63,212 nucleotides of DNA, from assembly GCA_036403155.1 (NCBI GenBank), contig DASWRM010000066.1:1-63212 (forward strand), given 5' to 3'. Below are positions 14,903 to 29,792 of this stretch, in pieces; within the stretch, counting starts at the first letter, position 1, and the number at the start of each line of letters is the position of its first letter. The position numbers and the translations under genes were made by a program. The notes under the pieces are model-generated. The model did not search any database. It was not told the DNA's origin and worked only from the letters and a program-made list of their open reading frames with translations. Origin of the DNA: Gaiellales bacterium (GTDB taxonomy: Bacteria; Actinomycetota; Thermoleophilia; Gaiellales; JAICJC01).

Positions 14903-15934
14903 ATGCGCGCGCTGGTGAAGACGACGGCGGAGCCCGGCCTCTGGCTCGAGGACGTCCCGGAGCCGGAGTACGGCATCAACGACGTCCTGATTCGGGTGCA
15001 CCGCACGGGCATCTGCGGCACCGACGTCCACATCTACCGCTGGGACGAGTGGGCGCAGCGGACGATCCCCGTGCCGCTCGTGATCGGTCACGAGTTCGTC
15101 GGCGAGATCGTCGCCGTCGGCGACAACGTCAGCGACTTCCACCCCGGCGACCTCGTGAGTGGCGAGGGCCACGTCGTCTGCGGCCGCTGCCGCAACTGCA
15201 TGGCCGGCAGGCGGCACCTGTGCGCCCACACGCAGGGCGTCGGGGTGAACAGGCCGGGGGCGTTCGCCGAGCTGATCGCCCTGCCGATGACGAACATCTG
15301 GCACCACTGGCCGGGCGTCGACCCTGAGATCGCCGCCATCTTCGACCCCTTCGGCAACGCCGTCCACACCGCGCTCGCCTTCCCCGTGCTCGGCGAGGAC
15401 GTCCTGATCACGGGCGCGGGCCCCATCGGCTGCATGGCGGCGGCGGTGGTCCGGCACGCCGGGGCGCGCCACGTCGCCGTGAGCGACCCGAATCCCTACC
15501 GCCTGGAGCTGGCCGGGCGCATGGGTGCGACGGTGACCGTCGACCCCACCCGCCGCGAGCTGGCCGACGTCCAGCAGGAGCTCGGCATGACGGAGGGGTT
15601 CGACATCGGGCTCGAGATGTCGGGCAACGGCGATGCCCTGCACGGCATGCTCGCCAACATGTCGCACGGGGGGCGCATTGCGATGCTGGGCATACCCACG
15701 CGCGAGATCGCCATCGATTGGACTCAGGTGGTGTTCAACATGCTCACGCTGAAGGGCATCTACGGGCGCGAGATGTACGAGACCTGGTACCAGATGACGG
15801 TGATGCTGCAGTCCGGCCTCGACATCTCGCCGGTGATCACGCACAGGTTCCGGTACGACGAGTTCGAGGTGGGATTCGAGGCGGCCGGCTCCGGCGAGTC
15901 CGGCAAGGTGCTGCTCGACTGGAGGGAGATCTGA
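14903..15934 (+). CDS. tdh: L-threonine 3-dehydrogenase
   Basis: 343-residue zinc alcohol dehydrogenase-fold enzyme that oxidises threonine to 2-amino-3-ketobutyrate with NAD. Catalytic zinc ligands C38 (GICGTDVH), H63 and E64 (GHEF) fall at the same positions as in E. coli Tdh; the structural zinc motif CGRCRNC...C is present, as is the Rossmann turn [10 protein letters not shown]. '[11 protein letters not shown]' is a family signature. The ATG at 14903 lies close to a possible weak ribosome site; a longer frame would overlap the upstream divergent gene. Its stop overlaps the kbl start (TGATG), giving the classic tdh-kbl pair. Confidence 0.95.
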
Positions 15935-17121
15935 TGGTGTCGTCCACCCTGCAGACGGACCTGCGGGAGCGGATGCGGGAGCTTCGCGACCAGGGGCTGT
16001 ACAAGCGGGAGCACGTCATCGACACGCCGCAGGCCGACATGGTCGAGGTCGAGGACGCCGGTCGGGTGCTGAACCTCTGCGCGAACAACTACCTGGGCCT
16101 CGCCAGCCATCCGGACATCGTCGCCGCGGCACACGATGCGCTCGAGCGCTGGGGCTTCGGCATGGCGTCGGTGCGCTTCATCTGCGGCACCCAGCGGATC
16201 CACCGCGACCTCGAGGAGCGGCTCAGCGCGTTCCTCGGCACCGAGGACACGATCCTCTACAGCAGCTGCTTCGACGCGAACGGGGGCCTGTTCGAGACGC
16301 TGCTCGGCGCCGAGGACGCGGTCATCTCCGACGAGCTGAACCACGCGTCGATCATCGACGGCATCCGCCTGTGCAAGGCACAGCGGCTGCGGTACCGCAA
16401 CCGCGACCTCGACGAGCTCGAGGCGCGCCTGCAGGAGTCGTCGGGGGCCCGGTACCGGCTGATCGCCACCGACGGCGTGTTCTCGATGGACGGCTACGTC
16501 GCCGAGCTGCGAGGCATCTGCGACCTCGCCGACCGCTACGACGCCCTGGTCATGGTGGACGACTCGCATGCCGTCGGCTTCGTCGGAGAGCACGGCCGCG
16601 GAACCCACGAGCTGCACGACGTGATCGGCCGGGTCGACATCATGACCGGCACGCTCGGCAAGGCGATGGGCGGTGCCAGCGGCGGCTACACCTCCGCGAG
16701 CCGCGAGATCGTGGAGCTGCTCCGCCAGCGGTCGCGACCGTATCTGTTCTCGAACAGCATCCCGCCGCCCGTGGCCGGCGCGACGATGACCGCCCTCGAC
16801 CTGATCGAACGCTCGAGCGACCTGCGGGCGACGCTCCGCCGCAACACGGAGCATTTCCGCGGGCGGATGACCGAGCTCGGTTTCGACATCCTGCCGGGCG
16901 ACCACCCGATCGTGCCGGTGATGGTCGGCGACGCGGCCCTGGCCGGCCGCCTGGGCGAGGGGCTGATCCGGCGAGGCGTCTACGCGGTCGCGTTCTCCTA
17001 TCCCGTCGTCCCCAACGGCACGGCTCGGATCCGCACGCAGATGTCGGCTGCGCACACCATCGAGGAGCTCGACTTCGCGGTCGACCAGTTCGCCGCGGCG
17101 CGTGAGGAGATGGGCCGGTAG
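15934..17121 (+). CDS. kbl: 2-amino-3-ketobutyrate CoA ligase (glycine C-acetyltransferase)
   Basis: 395-residue alpha-oxoamine synthase that converts 2-amino-3-ketobutyrate and CoA to glycine and acetyl-CoA. Family marks: NNYLGL near 48, '[15 protein letters not shown]', '[17 protein letters not shown]' and the PLP lysine in '[13 protein letters not shown]' near 242. The start overlaps the tdh stop by one base, so both enzymes are made from one message, completing threonine degradation to glycine. A G/C-rich inverted repeat (17138-17150) follows the gene and may help end transcription. Confidence 0.95.
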
Positions 17122-17161: not shown

Positions 17162-18163
17162 CTAGCCGGCGGCCACCTGGGAGCGGGCAACCGAGAGCGG
17201 GTGATGGCACGCGGCAAGATGTCCGTCGCCGTGGAGGGTTAGAGGCGGCTCCACTCGGGCGCAGATCTCAGTGGCGTACCGGCAGCGCGGATGGAACCGG
17301 CATCCCGACGGCGGGGAGACGGGGCTCGGCACGTCACCTGTCAGCACGATGCGCTCACGCGCCGCCGCCGCCCGGGGATCGGGCACGGGCACCGCTGAGA
17401 GCAGCGCCTCGGTGTACGGGTGCACCGGCCGCGCATACAGCTCCTCCGCCGGCGACAGCTCCACCAGCTTCCCCAGGTACATGACCGCGATCCGGTCGGA
17501 GACGTGCCGGACGACGGCGAGGTCGTGTGCGATGAACACGTACGTCAACCCCAGGTCGTCCTGCAGGTCGTCGAGCAGGTTGATCACCTGCGCCTGGATG
17601 GACACGTCCAGCGCCGAGACCGGCTCGTCGCACACGACCAGCCGCGGGTTGACGGCAAGCGCGCGGGCCACGCCTATCCGCTGCCGCTGCCCGCCGGAGA
17701 ATTCATGCGGGTAGCGGTTGATGTGCTCGGGGCTCAGCCCGACCAGCTGCAGGAGCTCCTCCACCCGCCGGCGAGTGCCGTCGGGCGGCCCCATGCCGTG
17801 CACCTTCAGCGGGCCGCCGACGATCTGGCCGAGCCGGTGGCGAGGGTTGAGCGACGCATACGGATCCTGGAACACGATTTGGATATGGCGTCGCAGCGAG
17901 CGCAGCCTCGTGCCGCCGATCGCGGTGATGTCCTCCCCGTCGAACCTGATCGTTCCCGAGGTCGGCTGGTGGAGGCGAACGATGCACCGGCCGAGGGTCG
18001 ACTTTCCGCACCCCGACTCGCCGACCAGGCCGAGCGTCTCGCCTGCCTCGACGGCGAACGTCACGCCGTCGACCGCGTGGACGACCTTTCCCCGCGAGAG
18101 CACGCCCGCACCGGTCCGGAAGTGCTTCGTGAGATCCTCGACCTCGAGCAGGGGCCGCGTCAC
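17162..18163 (-). CDS. Peptide-type ABC importer ATP-binding protein, OppF/DppF-like
   Basis: 333-residue ATPase. Walker [10 protein letters not shown] (48-56), Q-loop '[14 protein letters not shown]', signature 'SGGQRQR', Walker B 'LVVCDEP' and the H-loop 'IAHD' are complete. The C-terminal oligopeptide extension has the usual cysteine cluster (CRFHPRC...C). GTG start overlaps the oppD-like gene (GTGA). It must serve the two permeases encoded on the other side of the LacI-type operator (26196-28147), since neither half of the locus has a full transporter on its own. It is the last gene of the leftward operon. Confidence 0.93.
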
Positions 18164-19188
18164 CGCGCGGCCTCCGGCGCTCCGCCCAGCTGCCCCGCGC
18201 GAGCATCCTCGCGGCTTGCCTGAGGCAGCAGGCAGGCGTCGAGATGCTCTGCCCCGACCCGCGCTTCCAGCGCGGGAACCAGTTCCGTGCAGCGATCGAA
18301 GCGGTTCCCGCACCTCGGCGCGAACGCACATCCGGTCGGGAGGTCGATCAGCGACGGCGGCTGTCCAGGGATCGCCGCCAGCCGTGCCGGCTTCGGGCCG
18401 TCGAGCCGCGGCACCGAGCCCATCAGGCCCCAGGTGTACGGATGCTGCGGGCGGTCGAACAGGTCGAGCGTCGTGGCCCGCTCCACCGCGCGGCCCGCAT
18501 ACATGACCATGACGCGATCGGCCAGACCGGCGACCACGCCGATGTCGTGGGTGATCAGGATCACGGCCGCACCGGACTCAGCGCGAAGGCGGTCCAGCAA
18601 CTCGAGGATCTGTGCCTGAATCGTCACGTCGAGGGCGGTCGTCGGCTCGTCGGCGATCAGCAGCGCGGGACTGCATGAGAGCGCCATCGCGATCATCACG
18701 CGCTGCCGCATGCCCCCCGAGAACTGGTGCGGGTAGTCGCGGGCACGGTGCTCGGGCTCCGGTATGCCAACGCTGCGCAGCAGCTCGACCGCGCGTCGGG
18801 CGGCGGCCCGCCGCGTGACCTGCTCGTGCGCGCGGATCTGTTCGGCGATCTGCCAGCCGATTCGGTGCACCGGGTTGAGCGACGTCATCGGATCTTGAAA
18901 GATCATCGCCGCCTCACGGCCGCGGATCTCCCGGAGCCTGCGCTCGGGGAGCGTGAGCAGGTTGCGGCCGCGGAAGACCGCCTCGCCCTCGATGACGACG
19001 TTCGGGTCGTCGATCAGCCCGAGCATCGCCAGCATGCTGACGCTCTTTCCCGAGCCGGACTCGCCCACCACGCCGAGCACCTCGCCGGCATGCAGGTCGA
19101 GGTCGAGATCATCCACCGCGCGCACGAGCCCGGCCTCGGTGCGGAAGGTCACGCGCAGGCCGCGGACGGAGAGGAGCGGCTCGCTCAT
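18160..19188 (-). CDS. Peptide-type ABC importer ATP-binding protein, OppD/DppD-like
   Basis: 342-residue ATPase, partner of the OppF-like protein. Walker A 'GESGSGKSV', '[14 protein letters not shown]', signature 'SGGMRQR', Walker B '[13 protein letters not shown]' and 'ITHD' are present, with the C-terminal Cys-containing peptide-transporter extension ([15 protein letters not shown]). ATG at 19188 chosen because it overlaps the M20 stop (ATGA). OppD and OppF form the heterodimeric motor of Opp/Dpp-type importers, which move peptides, nickel, or modified amino acids and sugars. Confidence 0.93.
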
Positions 19189-20318
19189 GCGGCTTCTCCA
19201 CAGAACGATCGCGCCGCCCGTTCCAGCACCGCTGCGCAGGTTTCGAGCGACTCGATGTCGACCCACTCCTCGGCCGTGTGCAGACCGGCGCCCTGCGGCC
19301 CGAACACGGCACAGGGGATACCGGCCTCGACCAGCACGCCCGAGTCCATCCATCCGTAGTCACTGCGGACGACGGGGGCGCGCCCGAGCACCTCCCCCGC
19401 AGCGCTGCTGAGCAGGGCGACGATCGGAGCATCCCGCCCGAGCATGACCGGCTCGCGTGCGATGACGACGTCGAAGCGCCCGCGAAAGCGGTCGTCCACG
19501 GCACGCGCGCCCTCCAACAGCCGCGCCATCTCCGCATGCGACTGCGCAACCGACTCGCCCGGCATCAGACAGCGTTCCACGCCGACCACGCATTCGGCCG
19601 GGTAGCTGGGATAGCTTTGGCCGCCCCGGATCGTGGACGCGTGGACGTTGGGCCGGCCCCATTCGGCGGTCGCACGCCCCGCCAGCTCACGGTCGAGCTG
19701 GAGGATCCCGGCGAGCAGCGGCCCCGCCAGCGCGATCCCGTCGACCCCCTGCTCCGGCTCACCTCCCGCAGACTCGCGCCCCTCGCTGGTCACGTCGTAC
19801 CAGACGAACCCACCATGCGCGAACACCACGTCGAGATCCGTCTGCTCCGGCAGCACGGCCGCGTCAGCGTGGTACCGCGCGACCAGCGACTCCGCTCCCA
19901 GGCTCGCCCATTCCTCGTCGATCACCCAGGCGAGCAGGAGGTCGCCCCCCAGCCGAGCACCGGCGGCGAGCCGCTCGGCGGCGACCACCGCAGCCGCAAT
20001 CCCGCCCTTCATATCGTTCGTGCCGCGCCCGTACATCCGGCCGCCACGAATTTCCGGGCGGAACTGGTTCGCCAGGCCGCCGACGACGTCCGTGTGGCCG
20101 CACACCATCAGCGCCGGGCCGCCGGCGCCGCGCAGGCGGCCGACGACGTTCGGGCGCCCCGGAGCCGCCTCCCAGACCTCGACCTCCAGCCCGGCCGTCT
20201 CCATGCGCGCCGCCAGCAGCCGAACGACCGCTCCCTCGCCCGCACCCCCGGGAACGAGCGAGGGGTTGGTCGAATCGACCGCCACCAGTTCGGCCAGCAG
20301 CTCGGCGACAGCGCTCAT
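19185..20318 (-). CDS. M20-family metallohydrolase (ArgE/DapE/carboxypeptidase G2-like)
   Basis: 377-residue zinc amidohydrolase. The metal and catalytic residues are visible: H75 and D77 (GHTDVV), D102 (GRGTNDMKGG), the Glu pair near 135-136 (IDEEW) and a late His (GAGLHTAEEW). An inserted dimerisation domain occupies about 180-290. Members cut N-acyl amino acids, dipeptides or similar amides. In this locus it could release an amino acid from a larger imported compound, such as a glycated dipeptide, before or after deglycation; that is inference. It overlaps both neighbours by four bases. Confidence 0.88.
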   Translation of the reverse strand: MSAVAELLAELVAVDSTNPSLVPGGAGEGAVVRLLAARMETAGLEVEVWEAAPGRPNVVGRLRGAGGPALMVCGHTDVVGGLANQFRPEIRGGRMYGRGTNDMKGGIAAAVVAAERLAAGARLGGDLLLAWVIDEEWASLGAESLVARYHADAAVLPEQTDLDVVFAHGGFVWYDVTSEGRESAGGEPEQGVDGIALAGPLLAGILQLDRELAGRATAEWGRPNVHASTIRGGQSYPSYPAECVVGVERCLMPGESVAQSHAEMARLLEGARAVDDRFRGRFDVVIAREPVMLGRDAPIVALLSSAAGEVLGRAPVVRSDYGWMDSGVLVEAGIPCAVFGPQGAGLHTAEEWVDIESLETCAAVLERAARSFCGEAA

Positions 20319-21307
20319 GGAGCAGCCCCGCAGGAACCGCGCACGATCAGGTGCGTGTCCAGGCGCACGCGCCGCCGGGGCCCGTCGTCACCCGCGATGC
20401 GAGCAAGCAGCCGCTCGCCTGCGATGCGGCCGAGCTCGCCGACCGGCTGCGACACGACGGTGAGCGGCGGATCCACGAGGGTCGTCCAATCCAGGTCGTC
20501 GAACCCGACGATCGCCACGTCCGCCGGGATCTGCAGCCCCAGCTCGCGGCATGCGAGAACGGCGCCGTACGTCATGAAGTTGTTGGCGGTGAACAGGGCC
20601 GACGGCCTGTCACGGCGGGCGAGCAGCGACCGCGCCGCCCGCACACCGTCCGCCTGGCTCGACCCACCGATGGACACCAGCGACTCGTCGAGCAGCCCTG
20701 CCTCCCGGAGCGTCCGGCGGTAGCCGGCGAGGCGTTCGGCCGAGGAGCTGATGGCCGGCGTGTCCGAGATCATCCCGATGCGGGCATGACGGAGGGAGAG
20801 CAGGTGCTCCACGGCCCGTCGCGCACCGGCGGTGTTCCGCGCGAGCACCGCGTCTGCGTCGACGCCGGGGACGGTGCGGTCGAGCAGCACCAAGGGCGGT
20901 GAGCCGCTGAACGATCCGGAGCCCGCGCCGGGAGCCGGCACCACCACGAGACCGTCCACGCGCCTCGCCCGCAGCGCCTGCATCGCCCGGCGCTCGCGGG
21001 CAGGGTCCTCGTCGGCATTCGCGAGCAGCACGGTGTAGCCGCGCGGCTCGAGGGCATCTGCCAGTCCGCGCGCCACACCGGCGAAGAAGGGATTGTCGAT
21101 GTCGCCGACGATGAGGCCGACCGTGTGCGTTGCGCGCGACACGAGCGCACGTGCGACGCCGTTTGGCGTATAGCCCAACGCGGTCGCCGTCTCCGTGACC
21201 CGCACCCTGGCATCGGCGCTGGCATAGCCGTAGTTCCCCAGGACGCGGGCGGCGGTGGCCTGCGACACGCCGGCGGCGCGCGCAACGTCCCTCACGGTGA
21301 CAGCCAT
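20315..21307 (-). CDS. LacI-family transcriptional regulator
   Basis: 330-residue repressor. The N-terminal helix-turn-helix and hinge (TVRDVARAAGVSQATAARVLGNYGYAS...R..V...A..LGYTPN) are typical, followed by a periplasmic-binding-type sensor domain (VGLIVGDIDNPFF, VGFDDLDW). The ATG at 21307 is ten bases from a LacI-type near-palindrome (21317-21330), so it probably controls its own operon and the divergent catabolic operon. Its ligand is probably the Amadori compound or a phosphorylated intermediate (inference). It is the first gene of the leftward operon, followed by the M20 and ATPase genes. Confidence 0.92.
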   Translation of the reverse strand: MAVTVRDVARAAGVSQATAARVLGNYGYASADARVRVTETATALGYTPNGVARALVSRATHTVGLIVGDIDNPFFAGVARGLADALEPRGYTVLLANADEDPARERRAMQALRARRVDGLVVVPAPGAGSGSFSGSPPLVLLDRTVPGVDADAVLARNTAGARRAVEHLLSLRHARIGMISDTPAISSSAERLAGYRRTLREAGLLDESLVSIGGSSQADGVRAARSLLARRDRPSALFTANNFMTYGAVLACRELGLQIPADVAIVGFDDLDWTTLVDPPLTVVSQPVGELGRIAGERLLARIAGDDGPRRRVRLDTHLIVRGSCGAAP

Positions 21308-21316
21308 GACGCCGCA

Positions 21317-21330
21317 TGATAGCGTTATCA
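21317..21330. promoter_or_regulatory. LacI-type operator between divergent operons
   Basis: TGATAGCGTTATCA is a 14-base near-palindrome with the central CG typical of LacI-family sites; only the pair flanking CG is imperfect. It lies in the 56-base gap between the LacI start (21307) and the frlB-like start (21364), where a bound repressor could block both promoters. Confidence 0.75.
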
Positions 21331-21363: not shown

Positions 21364-22419
21364 GTGGATCACCTTGACGAGCTGGTGGAAGGGGCGAAGA
21401 GCTCCGAGTTGTTCTCGGCGCCGCACCTCGAAGCGGATGCCGGCCGCTTCCTCGCCGAGCAGGCCGACGGCGTTCTCGAGCTGGCGGCGGACGCACGATC
21501 ACGCGGGCGGCGAGTGTTCTTCGTCGGCAGCGGCGGATCGTGGGCGAGCATGTACAGCGGCAAATGGCTGTGCGACCGCCTGACGGGCGCGATCACCGAC
21601 GTGCTGCCGTCCTACGAGCTGGTCTGGCGCCGGCCGGCCGCTCTCGACTCGGACGCGCTGGTCATCCTCGCCAGCTACTCGGGCCGTACCGAGGACACGA
21701 TGGAGGCCCTGCGCTTCGCTCGCAGCCGCGGCGCCGAAACCGTCGCCGTGACCCGCAGCGCCGACTCGCCGCTCGCGGCCCAGGCCGCCCATGTCCTTGC
21801 ATATGACTCACCCGGCCTGTACTGCCTCCCCCTCCTCGCCGTCACGCTGTTCGCCTCACGCTGGGGAGAGCTGGACGGGAACGGCGAGGCGGCGGAGCTG
21901 CTCGAGGCGGTGCACGAGGTGCCCCGACAGGTGGGCGACGCGTATCGGTCCCAGGCCGAGCGCGGGCGTGAGCTCGCTGAGCGGTTCCGGGACTCCGATC
22001 TCCTCTACTGCATAGGCGCGGGGCCGCTGTTCGGACTCGCCTACAAGTTCGGCCTGACCGTGTTCATGGAGAACATGCGAATCCACGGATCGGTGATCGA
22101 AAGCGCTGAGTTCCGGCACGGGCCGGCCGAGATGCTCGACCGCCGCGGCGCGGACATGGCCGTTGTCGTCGGCACCGACGAGTCGCGCGAGATGACGCTC
22201 CGAACGCTGCACTTCGCCGAGCAGCACGGCGCGCGCACGGCCGTGTTCGACGCCGCCGATTTCGCAGGCGTCCACCCCCTGCTGACGCCATTCGTCCTGA
22301 AGGTGGCGCTCCAGTGGTTCATCGTCTACGCGACCCTCATGCGCGGCATCGACGACCTCGACGACCGCGCCTACATGGGACGTCAGGTGCTCGCGAAGGA
22401 GGGCTCGACCTGGCCCTGA
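21364..22419 (+). CDS. frlB: FrlB/FraB-like SIS-domain deglycase (Amadori phosphate deglycase)
   Basis: 351 residues with two sugar isomerase (SIS) domains (about 46-150 and 213-330). The second half follows E. coli fructoselysine-6-phosphate deglycase closely in a by-eye comparison: GAGPL...YK.G..V.ME, HGSVIES.EFRHGP, GTDESR..TLR, HPLLTPF and a late D.R.YMG. E246 and H252 correspond to the acid/base residues reported for the FrlB/FraB group. The reaction would split a fructosamine 6-phosphate into glucose 6-phosphate and a free amine or amino acid. The GTG start has GAGAGGAAT just upstream and sits 33 bases after the operator. Confidence 0.85.
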   Translation: MDHLDELVEGAKSSELFSAPHLEADAGRFLAEQADGVLELAADARSRGRRVFFVGSGGSWASMYSGKWLCDRLTGAITDVLPSYELVWRRPAALDSDALVILASYSGRTEDTMEALRFARSRGAETVAVTRSADSPLAAQAAHVLAYDSPGLYCLPLLAVTLFASRWGELDGNGEAAELLEAVHEVPRQVGDAYRSQAERGRELAERFRDSDLLYCIGAGPLFGLAYKFGLTVFMENMRIHGSVIESAEFRHGPAEMLDRRGADMAVVVGTDESREMTLRTLHFAEQHGARTAVFDAADFAGVHPLLTPFVLKVALQWFIVYATLMRGIDDLDDRAYMGRQVLAKEGSTWP

Positions 22420-23204
22420 GCGCCGCCGCCGTCGGTGACAACTGCGTGGACCGCTACGTCGACGCCGGTCTCGCCCTGGCCGGGGGGAATGCTCTCAACG
22501 TCGCGGTCGGCCTCGCGGGCGCCGGTATTGAGAGCCACTACCTGGGGGCGGTCGGCCGCGACGAGGACGGCCATCTCGTCCTGCGCACCGCATCCGCGGC
22601 GAGCGTCGACGTCTCGCGCGTACGACGTCTCGACGCTCCGACCGGCGTGACGCTCGTGCGCCTCTCGCACGATGGCGAGCGCAGTTTCGTCGAGGAGCGG
22701 CTCGGGGCGAGCGGCGAGTATCGCGTCACAGACGGCGATATCGCCTTCATGCGCTCGTGCGGGTGGGTGCACATGGCGAACCTGGCCGAGGCGGATCGGG
22801 TCGCGGCGCACCTGCGCGGCGTTCCGGTGTCCTACGACTTTGCGCTCGACCACACGCAGGCGGCGATCGAACGGTACGCACCCCGCCTCGCAATCGCATT
22901 CTTCTCCGGTGCCGGGCTGGCACGCGACGAAGCGGTCGCCCTGGCGGGGCGCGCGATCGATGCCGGGGCAGAGGAGGTGATCGTCACGCGCGGTCGGGGG
23001 GGCAGCATGGCGGTCAACAGCGCTGTGACGGAGGTGCCCGCGCAGCCGGTGGAGGTGGTCGACACCCTGGGCGCGGGTGACGCGCTGATCGCCGCGGTGA
23101 TCTCGGCGCGAGTACGAGGGCTCGATCTCGAGGAGGCTCTGGAGGCGGGAAGCGCAGCCGCCGCCAGGGCGTGCACGCATCACGGCGCATGGGAGCAGAC
23201 ATGA
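22410..23204 (+). CDS. frlD: FrlD-like PfkB-family kinase (fructosamine 6-kinase)
   Basis: 264-residue ribokinase-fold kinase. The start VGDNCVDRY, the GGNA.NVAV segment and the ending 'HHGAW' match E. coli fructoselysine 6-kinase, and the catalytic DTLGAGD (Asp 224) is present. It would phosphorylate the imported Amadori compound at C6 for the deglycase. No ATG, GTG or TTG is available near the conserved N-terminus; CTG at 22410 lies seven bases after a strong AAGGAGGG (22396-22403), making a rare CTG start likely (CTG 22416 is an alternative). It overlaps the end of frlB, so the two are coupled. Confidence 0.85.
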   Translation: MALSAAAVGDNCVDRYVDAGLALAGGNALNVAVGLAGAGIESHYLGAVGRDEDGHLVLRTASAASVDVSRVRRLDAPTGVTLVRLSHDGERSFVEERLGASGEYRVTDGDIAFMRSCGWVHMANLAEADRVAAHLRGVPVSYDFALDHTQAAIERYAPRLAIAFFSGAGLARDEAVALAGRAIDAGAEEVIVTRGRGGSMAVNSAVTEVPAQPVEVVDTLGAGDALIAAVISARVRGLDLEEALEAGSAAAARACTHHGAWEQT

Positions 23205-24559
23205 TCACGACTCGTTCGCAGCAGTTGTTCGACCAGGCAGCACGCACGCTCGTCGGCGGCGTCGGCTCAGGGACACGTTCTCCACGGTCGGGGTGGCTTC
23301 CGGCGCCCGTCTTCGTCCGGTCGGGGGACGGCGCCTGGCTGACCGATGAGGACGGGAACCGCTACCTCGACTACGTGATGGGCCAGGGGCCGCTGATCCT
23401 GGGCCACCGCCCGCGGACGGTGATCGAGCAGGTGACGCGGACGCTCGAGGAGCGCGGCTCGCTGGTCTCGCTCGCCCACGACCTCGAAGGACAGGCCGCC
23501 GAGGCGATCGTGTCGCGCATGCCGGCGGTCGACCTGGTGCGCTTCTCGAGCAGTGGCACGGAGGCCGCGATGTACGCGCTGCGGTTTGCGCGGGCCTTCA
23601 CCGGCCGAGACCTGATCCTGCGGTTCGAAGGGCACTACCACGGCTGGTCGGATGCGATCCACTGGTCGGCCCACCCATCGCCCGAGTCGTGGGGCCCGGA
23701 CGACGCACCGACGGTCACGCCCGGATCGACCGGGATGCCCGCCGCCGTCGGCGACACGCTGGTGGTCGAGCGGTGGAACGACACCGCCGCGCTCGAGCGA
23801 GCGTTTGCCGCACACGGCGACCGCATAGCGGCCGTGATCACCGAGCCCATCCTGGGAAACTGCGGCGGCCTCATGCCGGCGGACGGCTACTTGGAGCGCA
23901 TGCGCGAGCTTGCCACACAGGCCGGGGCACTGCTGATCTTCGACGAGGTCCTGACCGGCTTTCGAATCGGGTCCGGAGGCGCACAGCAGATGCTCGGCAT
24001 CGAGCCGGACCTGACGGTCCTGGCCAAGGCGATCGGGGCGGGGTTCCCCGTCGCGGCGCTGGGCGGACGGCGCGAGGTGATGGAGCAGGCCGCCGACGGC
24101 CGGACCATGCACGGCGGTACCTACAACTCGAACATGCTGGTCTGCGCAGCGGTCATCGCCGCCTGCCGAGAGACCGGCGCGGAGGGGTTCTATGACCGTC
24201 TCAACGCGCGCGGCGCGCGACTCGCGAACGGTCTGGTTGAGGCGGCCCAAAACGCCGGCATGGACGCGTGCTGGAGCGGCGTCGGCGCCCTCTTCCAGCT
24301 CTGGTTCTCGGCCGATCCGCCCCGCGACTACCGAGAGGCGCACGCCATCGCCGCGCGTAGCCCGTTCTTCTCCCTCTACCGGGAGCTACGCGACCGCCGG
24401 GTGCTGATCCAGCCTCCCCAGGAGGGATTGTGGTTGATCTCAGGCGCGCACAGCGACGACGACGTCGACCGCACGCTGGAGGCGGCGGTGGACGCCATGC
24501 CCGCGGTGGCGCAGGCGCTCGCCGACGGTACCGTCGGCCCGATGGGCGGCCTGCGATGA
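23201..24559 (+). CDS. Class III PLP-dependent aminotransferase/aminomutase, GSA-AM-like
   Basis: 452-residue fold-type I PLP enzyme resembling glutamate-1-semialdehyde aminomutase. The PLP lysine is K276 (LAKAIGAGFP), the cofactor-ring Asp is in IFDEVLTGFR, the phosphate segment is SSGTEA near 117-122, and the TEPILGN segment is present. It is unlikely to be the tetrapyrrole enzyme, because it sits inside a sugar-amine catabolic operon and overlaps the kinase stop (ATGA). Class III members also include amino-acid racemases and omega-aminotransferases. It may racemise or deaminate the amino acid freed by the deglycase (inference). Confidence 0.85.
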   Translation: MITTRSQQLFDQAARTLVGGVGSGTRSPRSGWLPAPVFVRSGDGAWLTDEDGNRYLDYVMGQGPLILGHRPRTVIEQVTRTLEERGSLVSLAHDLEGQAAEAIVSRMPAVDLVRFSSSGTEAAMYALRFARAFTGRDLILRFEGHYHGWSDAIHWSAHPSPESWGPDDAPTVTPGSTGMPAAVGDTLVVERWNDTAALERAFAAHGDRIAAVITEPILGNCGGLMPADGYLERMRELATQAGALLIFDEVLTGFRIGSGGAQQMLGIEPDLTVLAKAIGAGFPVAALGGRREVMEQAADGRTMHGGTYNSNMLVCAAVIAACRETGAEGFYDRLNARGARLANGLVEAAQNAGMDACWSGVGALFQLWFSADPPRDYREAHAIAARSPFFSLYRELRDRRVLIQPPQEGLWLISGAHSDDDVDRTLEAAVDAMPAVAQALADGTVGPMGGLR

Positions 24560-26199
24560 GCGCGGCGCGAGTGGCAGCCACGATGGCGGCGCTCTGCACG
24601 GTGCTCGCAGGCTGCGGCGGGGGCAGCGGTTCCGCCGGCGGCTCGGGTGGGGGCACCCCGGTGAACGGCGGCATCCTCCAGGCGGGCATCCCGGGAAACC
24701 CGGACCACCTCGACCCGGCGCTGTCCTACACCAACGAAGGCTGGGAGATCCTCGAGGCGACGAACAACGGGCTGCTGACCTTCAAGAAGGTGGCGGGCGG
24801 GGCCGGCGCACAGGTCGTTCCGGACATCGCGAGCGCCATGCCGACGGTCGGCGACGGCGGCACCACCTACACGTTCCACCTCCGGTCAGGCGTGATGTTC
24901 TCGTCGCCCGTGAACCGCGAGGTCAAGCCGTCCGACTTCAAGTTCTCGATCGAGCGGCTGTTCCGAGTGGACTCCGGCGGCGTCGGATTCTTCACGGGGA
25001 TCGCGGGCGCGGAGCAGTACGCGAAGACGCGAAAGGGCGGAATCCCCGGGATCGTCGCGGACGACAAGGCGATGACGATCACGTTCCATCTGACGAAGCC
25101 TGACGGCACCTTCGATGACTACATCGCGACGCCGTTCGCCTTCGCCCTGCCGGTGGGCACGCCCGACAAGGACATCTCCACGATCGCGCAGTGGCGCGTC
25201 GCGACGGGGCCTTACCGGATCACGGACTACGTGCCCCACCAGACGATCGCGATCCGGCGCAACGCGACGTTCCACTCGTGGACGGCCGACACGCCGAATG
25301 GCCACATCGACGGCATCGACGTGCACATCGGCGTGACGCCGGAGCAGTCGGTCAACGAGATCGCGGACGGGCAGTTGGACTGGTATTTCGAATCGGTCCC
25401 GCCGGACCGGTTGACGGCCCTGAAGGCGCAGTACCCCGACCAGGTCTTCCCCTTCACCCGAAACAACACGACCTTCTTCGTCATGAACGAGCGCAAGTAC
25501 CCGTTCACGAAGCTCGCGGTGCGCCAGGCGGTCAACTATGCGATCGACCGCAACGCCCTGGTCAAGATCTACGGCGGCCAGGGCACGCCGACCGAGAACA
25601 TCGTGCCCCCCGGGTTCGGCGGCGCATACAAGCCGCACCACCTGTACCCGCACGATCTCGACCGGGCGCGGAAGCTGATCCAGCAGGCGGGGGTAGAAGG
25701 AGCGCAGGTGACAGTGTGGGGCCACAACACGGAGCCGACGCCGGCCGCCGTGCAGTACCTGGCGGGCGTGCTCAACCAGATCGGGCTCAAGGCCACCGTG
25801 AAGACGTTCGACGAGTCCGTCTACTGGGACACGATCGCCAGCGAGAAGGGAGATCCCCAGATCATGTTCAACGACTGGAACGAGGACTATCCCGAGGCTC
25901 AGGACTGGATCGACGTGATGCTGAACGGCGAGCATATTGTCAATGTCGGCAACAACGACATCTCGAATACCAACGTCCCGGCGTACAACAAGCTGATCGA
26001 CAGGGCGAAGGCGATGCCGCTCGGCCCGGCCCGCAACGCCATCTGGGCGAAGCTCGACGAGCTGTTCATGAAGAACGACGCCGGCTGGGCGCCGTTCATG
26101 AACCGCGAATGGCCCAAGTTCGTGTCCAAGCGGCTGCACGGGCTGGTGTTCAACGGCACCTACTTCGAGTTGTTCCCGTCGATGTGGTTGAGCAAGTGA
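24556..26199 (+). CDS. Peptide/sugar-amine-type ABC substrate-binding lipoprotein 1
   Basis: 547-residue family 5 solute-binding protein (DppA/OppA type). A short signal ends in the lipobox LAGC near residue 18, followed by a Gly/Ser linker. Family marks include 'HLDPALSYTNEGWEILEATN', 'SIERLFRVDSGG', 'ATGPYRITDYVPHQ' and 'AVRQAVNYAIDRNALVKI'. It captures the substrate outside the membrane for the two permeases directly downstream. The ATG overlaps the aminotransferase stop (ATGA). It is closely related to the second binding protein at 28155-29792, so the locus carries two receptors for one transporter. Confidence 0.93.
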   Translation: MSAARVAATMAALCTVLAGCGGGSGSAGGSGGGTPVNGGILQAGIPGNPDHLDPALSYTNEGWEILEATNNGLLTFKKVAGGAGAQVVPDIASAMPTVGDGGTTYTFHLRSGVMFSSPVNREVKPSDFKFSIERLFRVDSGGVGFFTGIAGAEQYAKTRKGGIPGIVADDKAMTITFHLTKPDGTFDDYIATPFAFALPVGTPDKDISTIAQWRVATGPYRITDYVPHQTIAIRRNATFHSWTADTPNGHIDGIDVHIGVTPEQSVNEIADGQLDWYFESVPPDRLTALKAQYPDQVFPFTRNNTTFFVMNERKYPFTKLAVRQAVNYAIDRNALVKIYGGQGTPTENIVPPGFGGAYKPHHLYPHDLDRARKLIQQAGVEGAQVTVWGHNTEPTPAAVQYLAGVLNQIGLKATVKTFDESVYWDTIASEKGDPQIMFNDWNEDYPEAQDWIDVMLNGEHIVNVGNNDISNTNVPAYNKLIDRAKAMPLGPARNAIWAKLDELFMKNDAGWAPFMNREWPKFVSKRLHGLVFNGTYFELFPSMWLSK

Positions 26200-27179
26200 C
26201 CGCGAGCGCGCCGCTGGCGTCCGGCAGCTTCCGGACCGCATGGCGGCGGCTGCGCCGCAACCCCGCGGCGATCCTCTCCGCACTCGTGTTGATCGGCGTG
26301 GTGTTCGCGTGCTTCCCCGGTGCGCCGCTCTGGGTCTCGCACGCCTGCAACCACGGGCCGGACGACCAGAACATCCAGGGCACCGTGTCGAACGGTGGGC
26401 GTCGGGTGCCGGTGGTCGCAAACGACGGCACGCCCATCGGCCCGGGGCTCCGCGCCTGTTACCTGCTGGGCGCGGACAGCAACGGGCGCGACCTCTTCGT
26501 GCGGCTGCTCTACGGCGGACGGGTCTCGCTCGAGGTCGGGTTCAGCTCAGCCGTCGCGTGCGTCGGGATCGCCCTCATCCTTGGCATTCTCGCCGCCTAC
26601 GCGGGCGGGCTCACCGACTCGCTGATCTCGCGAGTGCTGGACCTGATCTGGTCGTTCCCGGTGTATCTGCTGGCCGTTGCGCTCGCCACGGTGCTCGCCG
26701 TGAACGGGCTGTCGGTGGGGCCGGTGCACGTGGCGTCGACCTCGCTTCTGATACCCATCGTCGTCATTGCGGTGGTGTACATCCCGTACGTCGCACGTCC
26801 GATCCGCGGGCAGGTGTTGACGCTGCGGCGCATGGAGTTCGTCGAAGCCGCCGTGGCGAGCGGCTACAGCCCGATCCGCATCATGCTGGTCGAGCTGCTG
26901 CCCAACGTCGCATCGATGGCGCTCGTGTTCCTGACCCTGATCGTGGCGACGAACATCCTCACCGAGGCGGCGCTGTCGTTCCTCGGCGTGGGCGTCCCGC
27001 TGCTCACGCCGAGCTGGGGCAACATCATCGAGCAGGGATACCAGACGATCGTCACGGCGCCCTGGCTGACCGTGGCGCCCGGCCTGGCGATCATGCTCAC
27101 CGTCGTCTCGCTGAACGTGCTCGGCGACGCGCTCCGCGACGCACTCGACCCGCACGCCCGCCTCAGGATCCGGGGCTGA
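26196..27179 (+). CDS. ABC importer permease, DppC/OppC-like
   Basis: 327 residues, six helices. An N-terminal helix (about 26-44) is followed by a periplasmic insert leading to 'YLLGADSNGRDLFVRLLYGGRVSLEVG', the DppC signature. The EAA-type loop is 'VEAAVASGYSPIRIMLVELLPN'. GTG at 26196 is preferred because it overlaps the preceding stop (GTGA); another GTG lies 12 bases upstream. Pairs with the DppB-like protein encoded next and with the two ATPases on the far side of the operator. Confidence 0.93.
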   Translation: MTASAPLASGSFRTAWRRLRRNPAAILSALVLIGVVFACFPGAPLWVSHACNHGPDDQNIQGTVSNGGRRVPVVANDGTPIGPGLRACYLLGADSNGRDLFVRLLYGGRVSLEVGFSSAVACVGIALILGILAAYAGGLTDSLISRVLDLIWSFPVYLLAVALATVLAVNGLSVGPVHVASTSLLIPIVVIAVVYIPYVARPIRGQVLTLRRMEFVEAAVASGYSPIRIMLVELLPNVASMALVFLTLIVATNILTEAALSFLGVGVPLLTPSWGNIIEQGYQTIVTAPWLTVAPGLAIMLTVVSLNVLGDALRDALDPHARLRIRG

Positions 27180-28147
27180 TGGCTCGCGCCCTGACAGGAC
27201 GGATCGCAGGTCTTGCCGCGGTGCTGGCCGCCATCTCGCTCGGCGTCTTCTTCATCTTCAACGTGATTCCGGGCGGCGACCCCGCGCTGCGGCTGGCCGG
27301 GCGCCACCCGACGCAGGAGAACATCCGCCGGATCCGGCACGACTGGGGCTTCGACCGCCCGCTCTACGTCCAGTACGGCGACATGATGAACCGGCTCTTC
27401 CTGAAGCGCGATCTGATCAGCTACCAGGATCAGACGCCGGTCGTCCCGGCCATCCGGCGCGGCATCCCGCGGACGCTGTCACTCGCCGTCGGGGCGGCGG
27501 CGATCTGGCTGTTCTTCGGCACCCTGGTCGGGGTGCTCTCCGGGCTGCATCAGGGGCGTTGGCTCGACCGCGTGCTGACGGTGGTGGCGCTGGCCGGCGT
27601 CTCCATCCCGATCTTCTGGCTCGGCGCTGTTGCGCTGTACCTGCTGACCTTCAAGTGGCACTCGAATCCACTGTTCTCATGGATTCCGGCCGGCGGCTAC
27701 GTCCCGCTGACGCAGAACCCCGCGGCGTGGGCCAGCCATCTGGTGCTGCCGTGGATCACGCTGGCCGTCGTGTCGATCGGGTTCTACGCGCGCGTCGTAC
27801 GGAACTCGCTACTCGAGACGCGCCACCAGGACTACATCCGCACGGCCCGGGCGAAGGGCCTCTCCCCCGCCCGCGTCCTGCTCCGCCACACCCTGCGTAC
27901 CTGCCTGATCCCCGTCGTGACGCTGTTCGGCCTGGACTTCGGCGCGGCCGTCGGTGGCACGGTGATCCTGATCGAGCCCATCTTCGGCCTGGAGGGCGTC
28001 GGCCAGTACGCACAGGAATCGGTGGCGCACCTCGACCTGCCGCCGTTGATGGCGCTGACGCTCTACGGCGCGTTCTTCGTCGTCCTCTTCAACACGCTGG
28101 CGGATCTTGCCTACCTCTGGCTGGATCCGCGCAGCCGAACCGCGTGA
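27179..28147 (+). CDS. ABC importer permease, DppB/OppB-like
   Basis: 322 residues with six helices. N-terminal 'FFIFNVIPGGDPALRLAGRHPT' and 'IRHDWGFDRPLYVQYGDMM' are DppB marks; 'IPRTLSLAVGAAAIWLFFG' starts the core and the EAA-type loop is 'DYIRTARAKGLSPARVLLRHTL'. The ATG overlaps the DppC stop by one base (TGATG). The order DppC before DppB is the reverse of the usual one. Together with the DppC-like subunit it forms the membrane channel of the importer. Confidence 0.93.
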   Translation: MARALTGRIAGLAAVLAAISLGVFFIFNVIPGGDPALRLAGRHPTQENIRRIRHDWGFDRPLYVQYGDMMNRLFLKRDLISYQDQTPVVPAIRRGIPRTLSLAVGAAAIWLFFGTLVGVLSGLHQGRWLDRVLTVVALAGVSIPIFWLGAVALYLLTFKWHSNPLFSWIPAGGYVPLTQNPAAWASHLVLPWITLAVVSIGFYARVVRNSLLETRHQDYIRTARAKGLSPARVLLRHTLRTCLIPVVTLFGLDFGAAVGGTVILIEPIFGLEGVGQYAQESVAHLDLPPLMALTLYGAFFVVLFNTLADLAYLWLDPRSRTA

Positions 28148-28154
28148 GGTGCCC

Positions 28155-29792
28155 ATGCGCTGCACGGTGATCGTCACGACCCTGGTACTCGCCCTCGCCG
28201 CGGGGTGTGGATCGGGCAACAGCACGTCCGCGGGCGCTGGTGGATCGCCGGTGAACGGCGGCGTGCTGCGCGGCGGCATCCCGGACAATCCCGACCATCT
28301 CGACACGGGGATCTCGTTCGCGGTCGAGGGGTGGGAGCTGCTCGAGGCGACGAACAACGGGCTGCTCACGTTCAAGAAGGCGGGTGGTGGCCAGCAGGCC
28401 GTGATCCTGCCCGACATCGCGACGGCGATGCCCACCGTCTCCGCCGACGGGCGCACGTACACGCTCCACGTCCGCCCGAACGTCCGCTTCTCGCCACCGG
28501 TGAACCGTCCCGTGCGACCGTCGGATTTCCAGTATGCGATCGAGCGGCTGTTCCATGTCGGCTCGCCGGGCGTCGGCTTCTACACCGACATCGTTGGCGC
28601 GGACGCGTACGCGGCGCACCGGGCGTCGCACATCACGGGCATCGTCGCCGACGATGCGGCCGGAACCATCACGTTCCATCTGGTCAAGCCCGACGGCGCG
28701 TTCCTGGACGATCTGGCGATCCCGTTCGCATTCGCCGTCCCGGCCGGAACACCGTACCGGGACATCTCGACCGACCCCCGGTGGCGCGTCGGCACCGGCC
28801 CGTACATGGTGTCGAGCTACGTCCCCCGCCAGAAGGTCGTGCTGACGCGCAACCCGAACTTCCACCAGTGGACGCCCAACTCGCCGGACGGCCACGTCAA
28901 CGAGGTGGACATCACGATCGGCGTGACGCCCGAGCAGGCCGTGAACGAGACCATCCAGGGATCGCTCGACTGGTACATGGAGGCGGTTCCCCCCGACCGG
29001 TTCACCGCACTGCGGCAGCAGTACCCGGCGCAGACCTTCCTGTTTCCCCGCAACAACGTCACCTACTTCTCGATGAACCAGCGCAAGCCGCCGTTCGACA
29101 AGCTGGCGGTGCGCCAGGCCGTCAACTACGCGATCGACCGCAACGCCCTGGTCAAGATCTTCGGCGGGCAGGGCATCCCCTCCGAAACAGTGCTACCGCC
29201 CGGATTCGGGTCGAGCTACAGCGAGCACCACCTGTATCCGCACGCGCTCGCGAAGGCCAAGCAGCTGGTAGCACAGGCGGGTGCGACGGGCTCGCCGGTG
29301 CAGGTGTGGACGACGAACTCCCCGCCCGCCCCCGCAGCCGCCCAGTACCTCGCATCGGTGCTCAAGCAGATCGGGCTGGTCGTGACAGGCGTCAAACAGG
29401 TCGACGACTCGGTCTACTGGGACACCCTGCTCACGCAGTCCGGCGACCCGCAGATTGCATTCAACCACTTCGACCAGGACTTCCCCGAGGGCGAGGACTT
29501 CATCGACACGACGCTGAACGGCGAGCACATCGTCAACGTCGGCAACAACGACGTCTCGAACACCAATGACCCGACGCTCAACGCCATGATCGACCGCACC
29601 AAGCTGATGCCGCTGGGGGCCGCACGGAACGCACAATGGGCCAGGATCGACGCCTACTTCATGCAGCACGACGCCGGCTGGGCGCCGTTCCTGCACCTTG
29701 AGCAGGCCACGTTCGTGTCGTCCAGGCTGCACGGGCTCGTCTTCACCGGGTCGTACTTCGAACTGATCCCGGAGATGTGGCTGTCGAAGTGA
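28155..29792 (+). CDS. Peptide/sugar-amine-type ABC substrate-binding lipoprotein 2
   Basis: 545-residue paralogue of the lipoprotein at 24556-26199. The signal ends in the lipobox LAAGC near residue 18. Identical or near-identical blocks run along both proteins (ATNNGLLTFKK, AVRQAVNYAIDRNALVKI, NGEHIVNVGNND), showing a duplication within the operon, while the middle and ligand-facing regions have diverged. It starts seven bases after the DppB stop, after a weak GAGGTG site, and is the last gene of the rightward operon. The second receptor may widen the range of imported compounds (inference). Confidence 0.93.
   Translation: MRCTVIVTTLVLALAAGCGSGNSTSAGAGGSPVNGGVLRGGIPDNPDHLDTGISFAVEGWELLEATNNGLLTFKKAGGGQQAVILPDIATAMPTVSADGRTYTLHVRPNVRFSPPVNRPVRPSDFQYAIERLFHVGSPGVGFYTDIVGADAYAAHRASHITGIVADDAAGTITFHLVKPDGAFLDDLAIPFAFAVPAGTPYRDISTDPRWRVGTGPYMVSSYVPRQKVVLTRNPNFHQWTPNSPDGHVNEVDITIGVTPEQAVNETIQGSLDWYMEAVPPDRFTALRQQYPAQTFLFPRNNVTYFSMNQRKPPFDKLAVRQAVNYAIDRNALVKIFGGQGIPSETVLPPGFGSSYSEHHLYPHALAKAKQLVAQAGATGSPVQVWTTNSPPAPAAAQYLASVLKQIGLVVTGVKQVDDSVYWDTLLTQSGDPQIAFNHFDQDFPEGEDFIDTTLNGEHIVNVGNNDVSNTNDPTLNAMIDRTKLMPLGAARNAQWARIDAYFMQHDAGWAPFLHLEQATFVSSRLHGLVFTGSYFELIPEMWLSK

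Follow-up and report, generated by a model that had tools for sequence, protein, structure and literature searches.

A FrlB/FrlD-type gene pair within a candidate regulon for catabolism of an Amadori-type conjugate in a Gaiellales bacterium

The contig DASWRM010000066.1 of a Gaiellales bacterium (class Thermoleophilia, assembly GCA_036403155.1) was analysed over its full length of 63,212 nucleotides, hereafter called the window. It carries a gene for a SIS-domain protein (21364–22419, 351 aa), assigned as a FrlB/FraB-type ketosamine-6-phosphate deglycase on the basis of Pfam SIS, NCBIfam and the phylogenetic tree, and a gene for a FrlD-type PfkB kinase (22416–23204, 262 aa), assigned from Pfam PfkB, NCBIfam and the tree. 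Both genes are located on the plus strand, head to tail, and the kinase gene overlaps the SIS stop codon. Together with adjacent genes for a peptide-type importer, an M20 metallohydrolase, a class III aminotransferase and a LacI-family regulator, the pair appears to form a regulon, induced by its substrate, for the catabolism of an Amadori (1-amino-1-deoxy-ketose) conjugate, a reading to which we assign a probability of roughly two in three and which we favour because the window enzymes themselves are of FrlB and FrlD type. The observations behind it are the gene families and their conserved linkage, the restriction of an operator pattern to these genes, and the conservation of catalytic positions.

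The best NCBIfam model for the SIS protein was fructoselysine 6-phosphate deglycase FrlB with 160 bits, followed by GlmS (64 bits) and NagB-II (59 bits), while the best model for the kinase was fructoselysine 6-kinase FrlD with 152 bits, the next family reaching 74 bits. When the profile and reciprocal check proposed in a preliminary description of this DNA was run with the family models and the window's own genome, the window genes were the best matches of both models, with 160 versus 36 bits for the runner-up in the case of FrlB and 151 versus 66 bits in the case of FrlD. Both models match weakly in all 14 control genomes, and a weak match alone is therefore non-diagnostic. The closest PDB sequence to the SIS protein is 3eua, labelled as a "putative fructose-amino-acid-6-phosphate deglycase", which we take to be a B. 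subtilis protein, and its top plasmid matches carry a frlB annotation (34.7% identity). Identities to the E. coli K-12 proteins are 32.5% for FrlB and 34.4% for FrlD.

Alignment confirmed the preliminary observation that the motifs of this pair follow the order seen in E. coli FrlB and FrlD, although they are similar rather than identical. The segments SAEFRHGP, GTDESR and HPLLTPF of the window SIS protein correspond to SGEFRHGP, GNDESR and HPWLAPF of E. coli FrlB, and the VGDNCVD start and HHGAW(EQT) end of the kinase correspond to IGDNCVD and YHGAW of E. coli FrlD. The accompanying statement that these motifs are specific rather than generic is not supported as it stands. In the 28-row SIS alignment HPxLxPF is restricted to six Thermoleophilia proteins and two enterobacterial FrlBs, and GDNxxD is missing from both RbsK rows; HGP, however, is generic in SIS proteins (AGELKHGP in GlmS, GFRHGP in AgaS, AQFRHGP in a paralogue from the same genome). 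GDNxxD is also missing from three of the 20 FrlD-like rows, those of G614, G481 and pTiA47a; the N termini of the first two were cut by the gene calls (in G614 the motif was found upstream), and the start of the pTiA47a row is cut or doubtful. Residues E236 and H252 of the window SIS protein align with E214 and H230 of annotated FraB and with E233 and H249 of FrlB. We take the FraB residues to be the catalytic Glu and His, a role for which no published source was found when looked for; both are also kept in GlmS, so that the match of positions does not discriminate between the families.

The phylogenetic trees agree with the family scores. On the SIS tree (28 rows), 24 deglycase-type rows are separated, with support of 100/99, from GlmS, AgaS, a paralogue from the window genome and a Deinococcus SIS protein. 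Within this group the window protein falls into a clade (100/99) with seven further Thermoleophilia proteins, and G481 joins this clade at 92/90. The outgroup side of this tree consists of four rows, three of them long-branched, with neither a NagB-II row nor the own-genome paralogue L002 among them, and the order of the main branches within the deglycase-type group was left without resolution. On the kinase tree (22 rows), 20 FrlD-like rows are separated from two RbsK rows at 100/100, with nine of the 19 inner branches lacking support. Among the fetched plasmid kinases, those of Sinorhizobium and Pukyongiella are the nearest by identity (about 42%). On the scores and trees a generic SIS isomerase or deaminase and a ribokinase (RbsK) were rejected, GlmS, NagB-II and AgaS not being the best-matching families, and the choice of a FrlB/FrlD-type identity over these, and over NagB, made in the preliminary description is borne out by family scores, own-genome ranking and trees. 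Membership of the SIS protein in the broad FrlB/FraB-type group, as a distant relative of E. coli FrlB, and of the kinase in the broad FrlD-type group is supported by these comparisons. A structure predicted from a two-row alignment was poor (mean predicted local distance difference test score of 53.4, predicted template modelling score of 0.50) and was not used. The codon at the homology-defined kinase start, 22416, is CTG, where three relatives have GTG; it could be a CTG start or a sequence error.

LacI-family operators are usually palindromic with a central CG. A 14-bp palindrome of this kind, TGATAGCGTTATCA, is located at 21317–21330, between the lacI gene and the SIS gene. A degenerate pattern built from the sites in the window and in the related loci L033, L034 and L038 was run on ten whole genomes and revealed eight distinct exact sites in six of them, every one upstream of genes of this system. 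The reversed pattern, used as a control, gave no matches, and the rough expectation from base composition is 0.26 sites in 33 Mb. The window genome (3.2 Mb) contains exactly one exact match. Seven of the eight sites are found at the promoter regions of SIS or kinase operons, including both sites in G614 and those in G718 and G755. The eighth (G551, L127:4413-4426), the only one away from SIS and kinase genes, precedes another binding-protein gene by about 100 bp; the product of that gene is 61% identical to the binding protein of the window. Three sites (those of G718 and G755 and the second one of G551) were independent of the writing of the pattern. LacI relatives are present in seven of the ten genomes, six of which have exact sites, and the three that lack LacI also lack a site. 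The seventh, G208, has only two look-alike sites, beside the SIS and lacI genes, which are within the range of chance palindromes; in the same genome a Pfam T6SS_HCP gene lies between lacI and the SIS gene (L036:10649-11116). A scan of the window allowing two mismatches gave 2 matches versus 1.08 expected, and it is therefore the whole-genome confinement of the exact pattern that carries the argument for a regulon. Since all eight sites are upstream of genes of this system, the gene set probably forms one regulon under one operator pattern, and the LacI protein encoded here would be the regulator that binds the palindrome.

The genes that would belong to this regulon are arranged in two divergent operons. 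Downstream of the kinase gene, on the plus strand, are genes for a class III aminotransferase (23201–24559), a family 5 extracellular solute-binding protein (24553–26199, start uncertain), an OppC/DppC-type permease (26184–27179), an OppB/DppB-type permease (27176–28147), and a second family 5 solute-binding protein (28107–29792, start uncertain). On the minus strand, divergent from the SIS gene, are genes for the LacI-family regulator (20315–21307), an M20 metallohydrolase of the ArgE/DapE family (19185–20318), and OppD/DppD-type (18160–19188) and OppF/DppF-type (17162–18163) ATPases. NCBIfam and the tree place the aminotransferase in the glutamate-1-semialdehyde (GSA) aminomutase subfamily, with GSA aminomutase models nearest at 394.5 bits (cut-off 398). 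It is distinct from the housekeeping HemL: TIGR00713 gave 367 bits versus a cut-off of 527, while the other copy in the same genome (G000:C10) passed it with 573 bits. The window enzyme also differs by a longer loop and belongs to a clade separate from HemL. The arginine at the position which we take to bind the substrate carboxylate in GSA aminomutase appears to be kept.

The gene set is conserved as a unit in a small number of genomes. SIS matches at E ≤ 1e-25 were found in 13 of 399 genomes of the class, and a 78% relative is present in a Thermoleophilia bacterium (L032); M20 relatives at E ≤ 1e-90 occur in 14 of the 399. According to gene maps from a simple GC-frame caller, the SIS protein, kinase, aminotransferase, binding protein, OppB/OppC permeases, LacI and M20 enzyme are encoded together in the window, L033, L034, L036 and L038 plus L043. 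In L037 the SIS protein, kinase, aminotransferase, LacI and two M20 enzymes are present and only the permeases are missing, the contig ending inside the binding-protein gene. In L038 the pair is split: roughly 7 kb separates the SIS gene from that of the kinase, and the SIS gene, at the distal end of the kinase operon, is read from the opposite strand and has its own promoter region. In G755 the pieces lie on separate short contigs (SIS and LacI; aminotransferase and permeases; M20). An aminotransferase of at least 60% identity was found in eight of the 399 genomes, seven of which are among the ten with a SIS protein of at least 43% identity. These cut-offs were chosen after the lists had been seen, and the genomes are related by kinship; G481 (37%) and G632 and G646 (32%) fell outside the SIS set, G404, G407 and G410 (45–47%) outside the aminotransferase set, and the G433 gene, at the end of a contig, is incomplete. 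In a phylum-wide sample, SIS matches at E ≤ 1e-20 were obtained in 14 of 396 genomes, 12 of them outside the class with 26–32% identity, possibly representing other SIS families. The gene row of G551 continues with a LysA-like decarboxylase (230 bits, cut-off 298), a VOC protein and an aldose-1-epimerase-like protein, the last being consistent with a sugar; LysA-like genes beside the M20 genes of L043 and L037 are over the LysA cut-off.

Taken from family membership, the reactions, their order, the class of substrate and regulation by LacI can be proposed as follows. Uptake through the Opp-type importer, with the family 5 binding proteins, would bring in a sugar–amine conjugate in which the sugar is probably joined to an amino acid or small peptide. 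LacI would then leave its single operator, and both divergent operons would be switched on. The M20 enzyme could cleave an amide within the conjugate, the FrlD-type kinase would phosphorylate the ketosamine at C6, and the SIS enzyme, via E236 and H252, would yield glucose 6-phosphate and the free amine, from which the class III aminotransferase may remove the amino group. As to the amine part of the conjugate, nothing points to lysine.

Several observations weigh against the Amadori reading. The score of the SIS protein, 160 bits, is far below the curated equivalog cut-off of 430 (NF008481), and that of the kinase, 152 bits, is far below 247 (NF007321), although none of the 14 control genomes, E. 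coli included, exceeded the FrlB or FrlD cut-off, so that this control is no proof that the cut-off separates. The SIS protein ends with RAYMGRQVLAKEGSTWP and lacks the RRY(M/Y)...Y tail of the FrlB/FraB-type rows, a feature drawn from this alignment and not a published definition. The tail ...WP is present in all eight close clade members, while all 15 FrlB/FraB-type comparison rows end in Y; because of this difference, the amine side of the SIS pocket may differ from that of FrlB and FraB. A plain palindrome scan gives about four hits per kb in the window, so that such a scan is weak evidence by itself. G641 (L035, 82% complete) has the SIS protein and kinase, but the aminotransferase, M20 enzyme and LacI were not found genome-wide at the thresholds used; in G698 (L039) and G481 (L040) related SIS genes lie in different surroundings, and the kinase of L039 is nearer to the IolC type (120 bits) than to FrlD (61 bits); and G610 (86% complete) has the aminotransferase on a 3.5-kb contig and no SIS match.

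Further counter-evidence comes from loci in which relatives of the M20 enzyme and the aminotransferase accompany other sugar enzymes. In L108, from another family of the class, the M20 enzyme (56% identity) and aminotransferase (45%) have as neighbours an FGGY kinase, a permease of amino-acid-transporter type and a SIS protein whose nearest families are GlmS/NagB-II. In G361 (L144), from another class of the same phylum, the genes beside those of an M20 enzyme (38%) and the aminotransferase (47%) encode an FGGY kinase, a NagB-type protein (218 bits, cut-off 237) and a LysA-like enzyme over its cut-off. Such loci may handle a similar conjugate with a different sugar part, or the window pathway may also be directed at an aminosugar. 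In the latter case the conjugate would contain an aminosugar (2-amino), which the M20 enzyme would free from an amide; the kinase would then act on the aminosugar and the SIS protein would be an aminosugar-phosphate deaminase. We consider this unlikely, if worth keeping in view, since the window SIS protein and kinase score and group with FrlB/FraB and FrlD (59 bits for NagB-II versus 160 for FrlB), and the sister loci, which use other enzyme families, may serve another sugar.

More tentatively, the parallel loci could be seen as variants of one arrangement, in which a core of M20 enzyme and GSA-type aminotransferase (joined in several cases by a LysA-like decarboxylase), acting on an undescribed class of sugar–amino-acid conjugates, is coupled across actinobacterial lineages to interchangeable, non-homologous cassettes of a sugar kinase and a C–N-splitting enzyme: FrlD and FrlB in the window, an FGGY kinase and a GlmS/NagB-II-type SIS protein in L108 and its look-alikes, and an FGGY kinase and a NagB-type enzyme in L144. 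This idea is less likely than not. The occurrence of related M20 enzymes and aminotransferases beside other aminosugar enzymes suggests a wider, unnamed class of sugar–amine nutrients. By eye, L109–L111 look like L108, some with an amino-acid-type permease, a GntR-like gene or a family 5 binding protein, and L110 has no M20 gene on its contig; the names of kinases, permeases and lyases in L109–L111 and L117 were read by eye from protein starts, while the proteins of L108, L112 and L144 were profile-scanned. The gene row at L144:5758-13186 comprises M20, amino-acid-type permease, GSA-type aminotransferase, FGGY kinase, NagB-type and LysA-like genes, preceded by Opp-type importer genes. In G073 (L143) the aminotransferase (48%) accompanies an Opp-type importer and a ROK-family gene, with no SIS or M20 match in the stretch, and the G224 aminotransferase (L142, a 3.3-kb contig) was left out of gene mapping.

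The subfamily of the aminotransferase raises another alternative. GSA aminomutase shifts an amino group from C2 to C1, and an enzyme this close to the aminomutase models might produce 1-amino-1-deoxyfructose from a 2-amino aldose; phosphorylation and splitting of this product by the FrlD/FrlB pair would follow. We regard such a role as improbable: relatives of this aminotransferase are found with NagB-type deaminases, for which the step would be needless; the apparently kept carboxylate-binding arginine makes an amino-acid substrate likelier; and G641 has the SIS protein and kinase without the aminotransferase.

It is equally improbable that the window encodes a fructoselysine pathway proper, the reading suggested by the preliminary description. 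The motif order and the names of the best families speak for it, and E. coli frlABCDR (L042) likewise combines a FrlB-type SIS protein and a FrlD-type kinase in one operon, with the three SIS segments in the same order and the catalytic Glu and His aligned. However, both proteins score below the equivalog cut-offs, the identities to E. coli FrlB and FrlD are low and the C-terminal tail of the SIS protein is different. Moreover, the FrlA permease, FrlC epimerase and GntR-type FrlR are not among the window neighbours, and an Opp-type importer, LacI, M20 enzyme and class III aminotransferase are found in their place. Intracellular glycation repair instead of nutrient uptake is still less probable, for although FrlB/FrlD-type chemistry is generally known to be able to reverse glycation of free amino acids, linkage to an ATP-binding cassette (ABC) importer and its binding proteins, the operator pattern shared with them, and the sparse distribution of the SIS gene in the class all argue for uptake.

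The locus can be compared with other known systems. The importer and the fate of the amine are what mostly distinguish the routes known for glycated amino acids from one another. The plasmid pTiA47a (L050) is similar in carrying together genes for a SIS protein, a "fructoselysine 6-kinase", a family 5 binding protein, Opp-type ATPase and permeases, and LacI, but M20 and aminotransferase genes are replaced there by hydantoinase/oxoprolinase genes, and the SIS protein is 34.7% identical. The pTiA47a locus presumably handles a deoxyfructosyl opine, although it is not annotated as such; according to PMC4231840, deoxyfructosyl-glutamine is an Amadori compound that occurs in decaying plants and tumours and is catabolised by agrobacteria. 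In the Sinorhizobium/Rhizobium plasmid pairs (L051, L056), the L051 "fructoselysine 6-kinase" is the closest fetched plasmid kinase (42.7% identity) and shares an 11-row group with the window kinase (100/98), while the SIS proteins are only 25–26% identical, fall among the more distant deglycase-type rows and have a GntR regulator and an amino-acid-type ABC transporter nearby. The fructose-asparagine enzymes FraB and FraD (annotated fraB in L074) share the SIS and kinase superfamilies and the catalytic positions, but the identity is 27.8%, the transporter is of C4-dicarboxylate type, the regulator is GntR, and no M20 or aminotransferase gene is annotated in the 10.7-kb stretch. The B. subtilis frl system has in 3eua the best solved relative of the window SIS protein. 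According to the available part of PMC12632257, frlBONMD-frlP is likewise a fructosamine pathway fed by an ABC importer, but this is a type I importer, FrlONM with the FrlP/MsmX ATPase, and not of Opp type, and no M20 enzyme or aminotransferase is named in that part.

SIS and PfkB genes with other transporters and accessory enzymes were also found on plasmids of Sinorhizobium, Pukyongiella, Deinococcus, Rhizobium, Priestia and Klebsiella. Because pTiA47a and these other plasmids carry such pairs with varied accessory genes, FrlB/FrlD-type pairs in variable company are a known theme, and the novelty lies in this gene set. Novelty for Actinobacteria, as implied in the preliminary description, is not supported: the accessible text of PMC9749803 reports frlD hits there "to a lesser extent", naming Collinsella. 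The importer, hydrolase, aminotransferase and operator context, which were absent from the earlier finding, are the newer part. No description of this gene set was found by title or introduction in the open-access literature, which was covered in part, so that this is not proof of its absence in print; Thermoleophilia and Solirubrobacter were likewise not mentioned in the part covered. The operator pattern ties the deglycase pair, peptide-type importer, hydrolase and aminotransferase into a probable single regulon in an understudied class, and the question of the substrate is testable because the binding proteins and LacI are direct handles on the ligand.

At 14903–17121, a threonine dehydrogenase-like gene, recognised by eye, is followed by a glycine C-acetyltransferase gene (632 bits, over the cut-off); these genes were not seen in the L033–L038 stretches. 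A YgeY-type identity of the M20 enzyme seems less likely, since the window cluster showed no diaminopropionate ammonia-lyase gene and the score was 77 bits with the YgeY model versus 186 for DapE-ArgE. Elsewhere, M20 relatives adjoin a diaminopropionate ammonia-lyase gene in five of six plasmid stretches (L057–L061, from Deinococcus, Streptomyces and Paenarthrobacter), the exception being Mesorhizobium, and likewise in L112, where the lyase is over one NCBIfam cut-off, and in L117, where it was recognised by eye.

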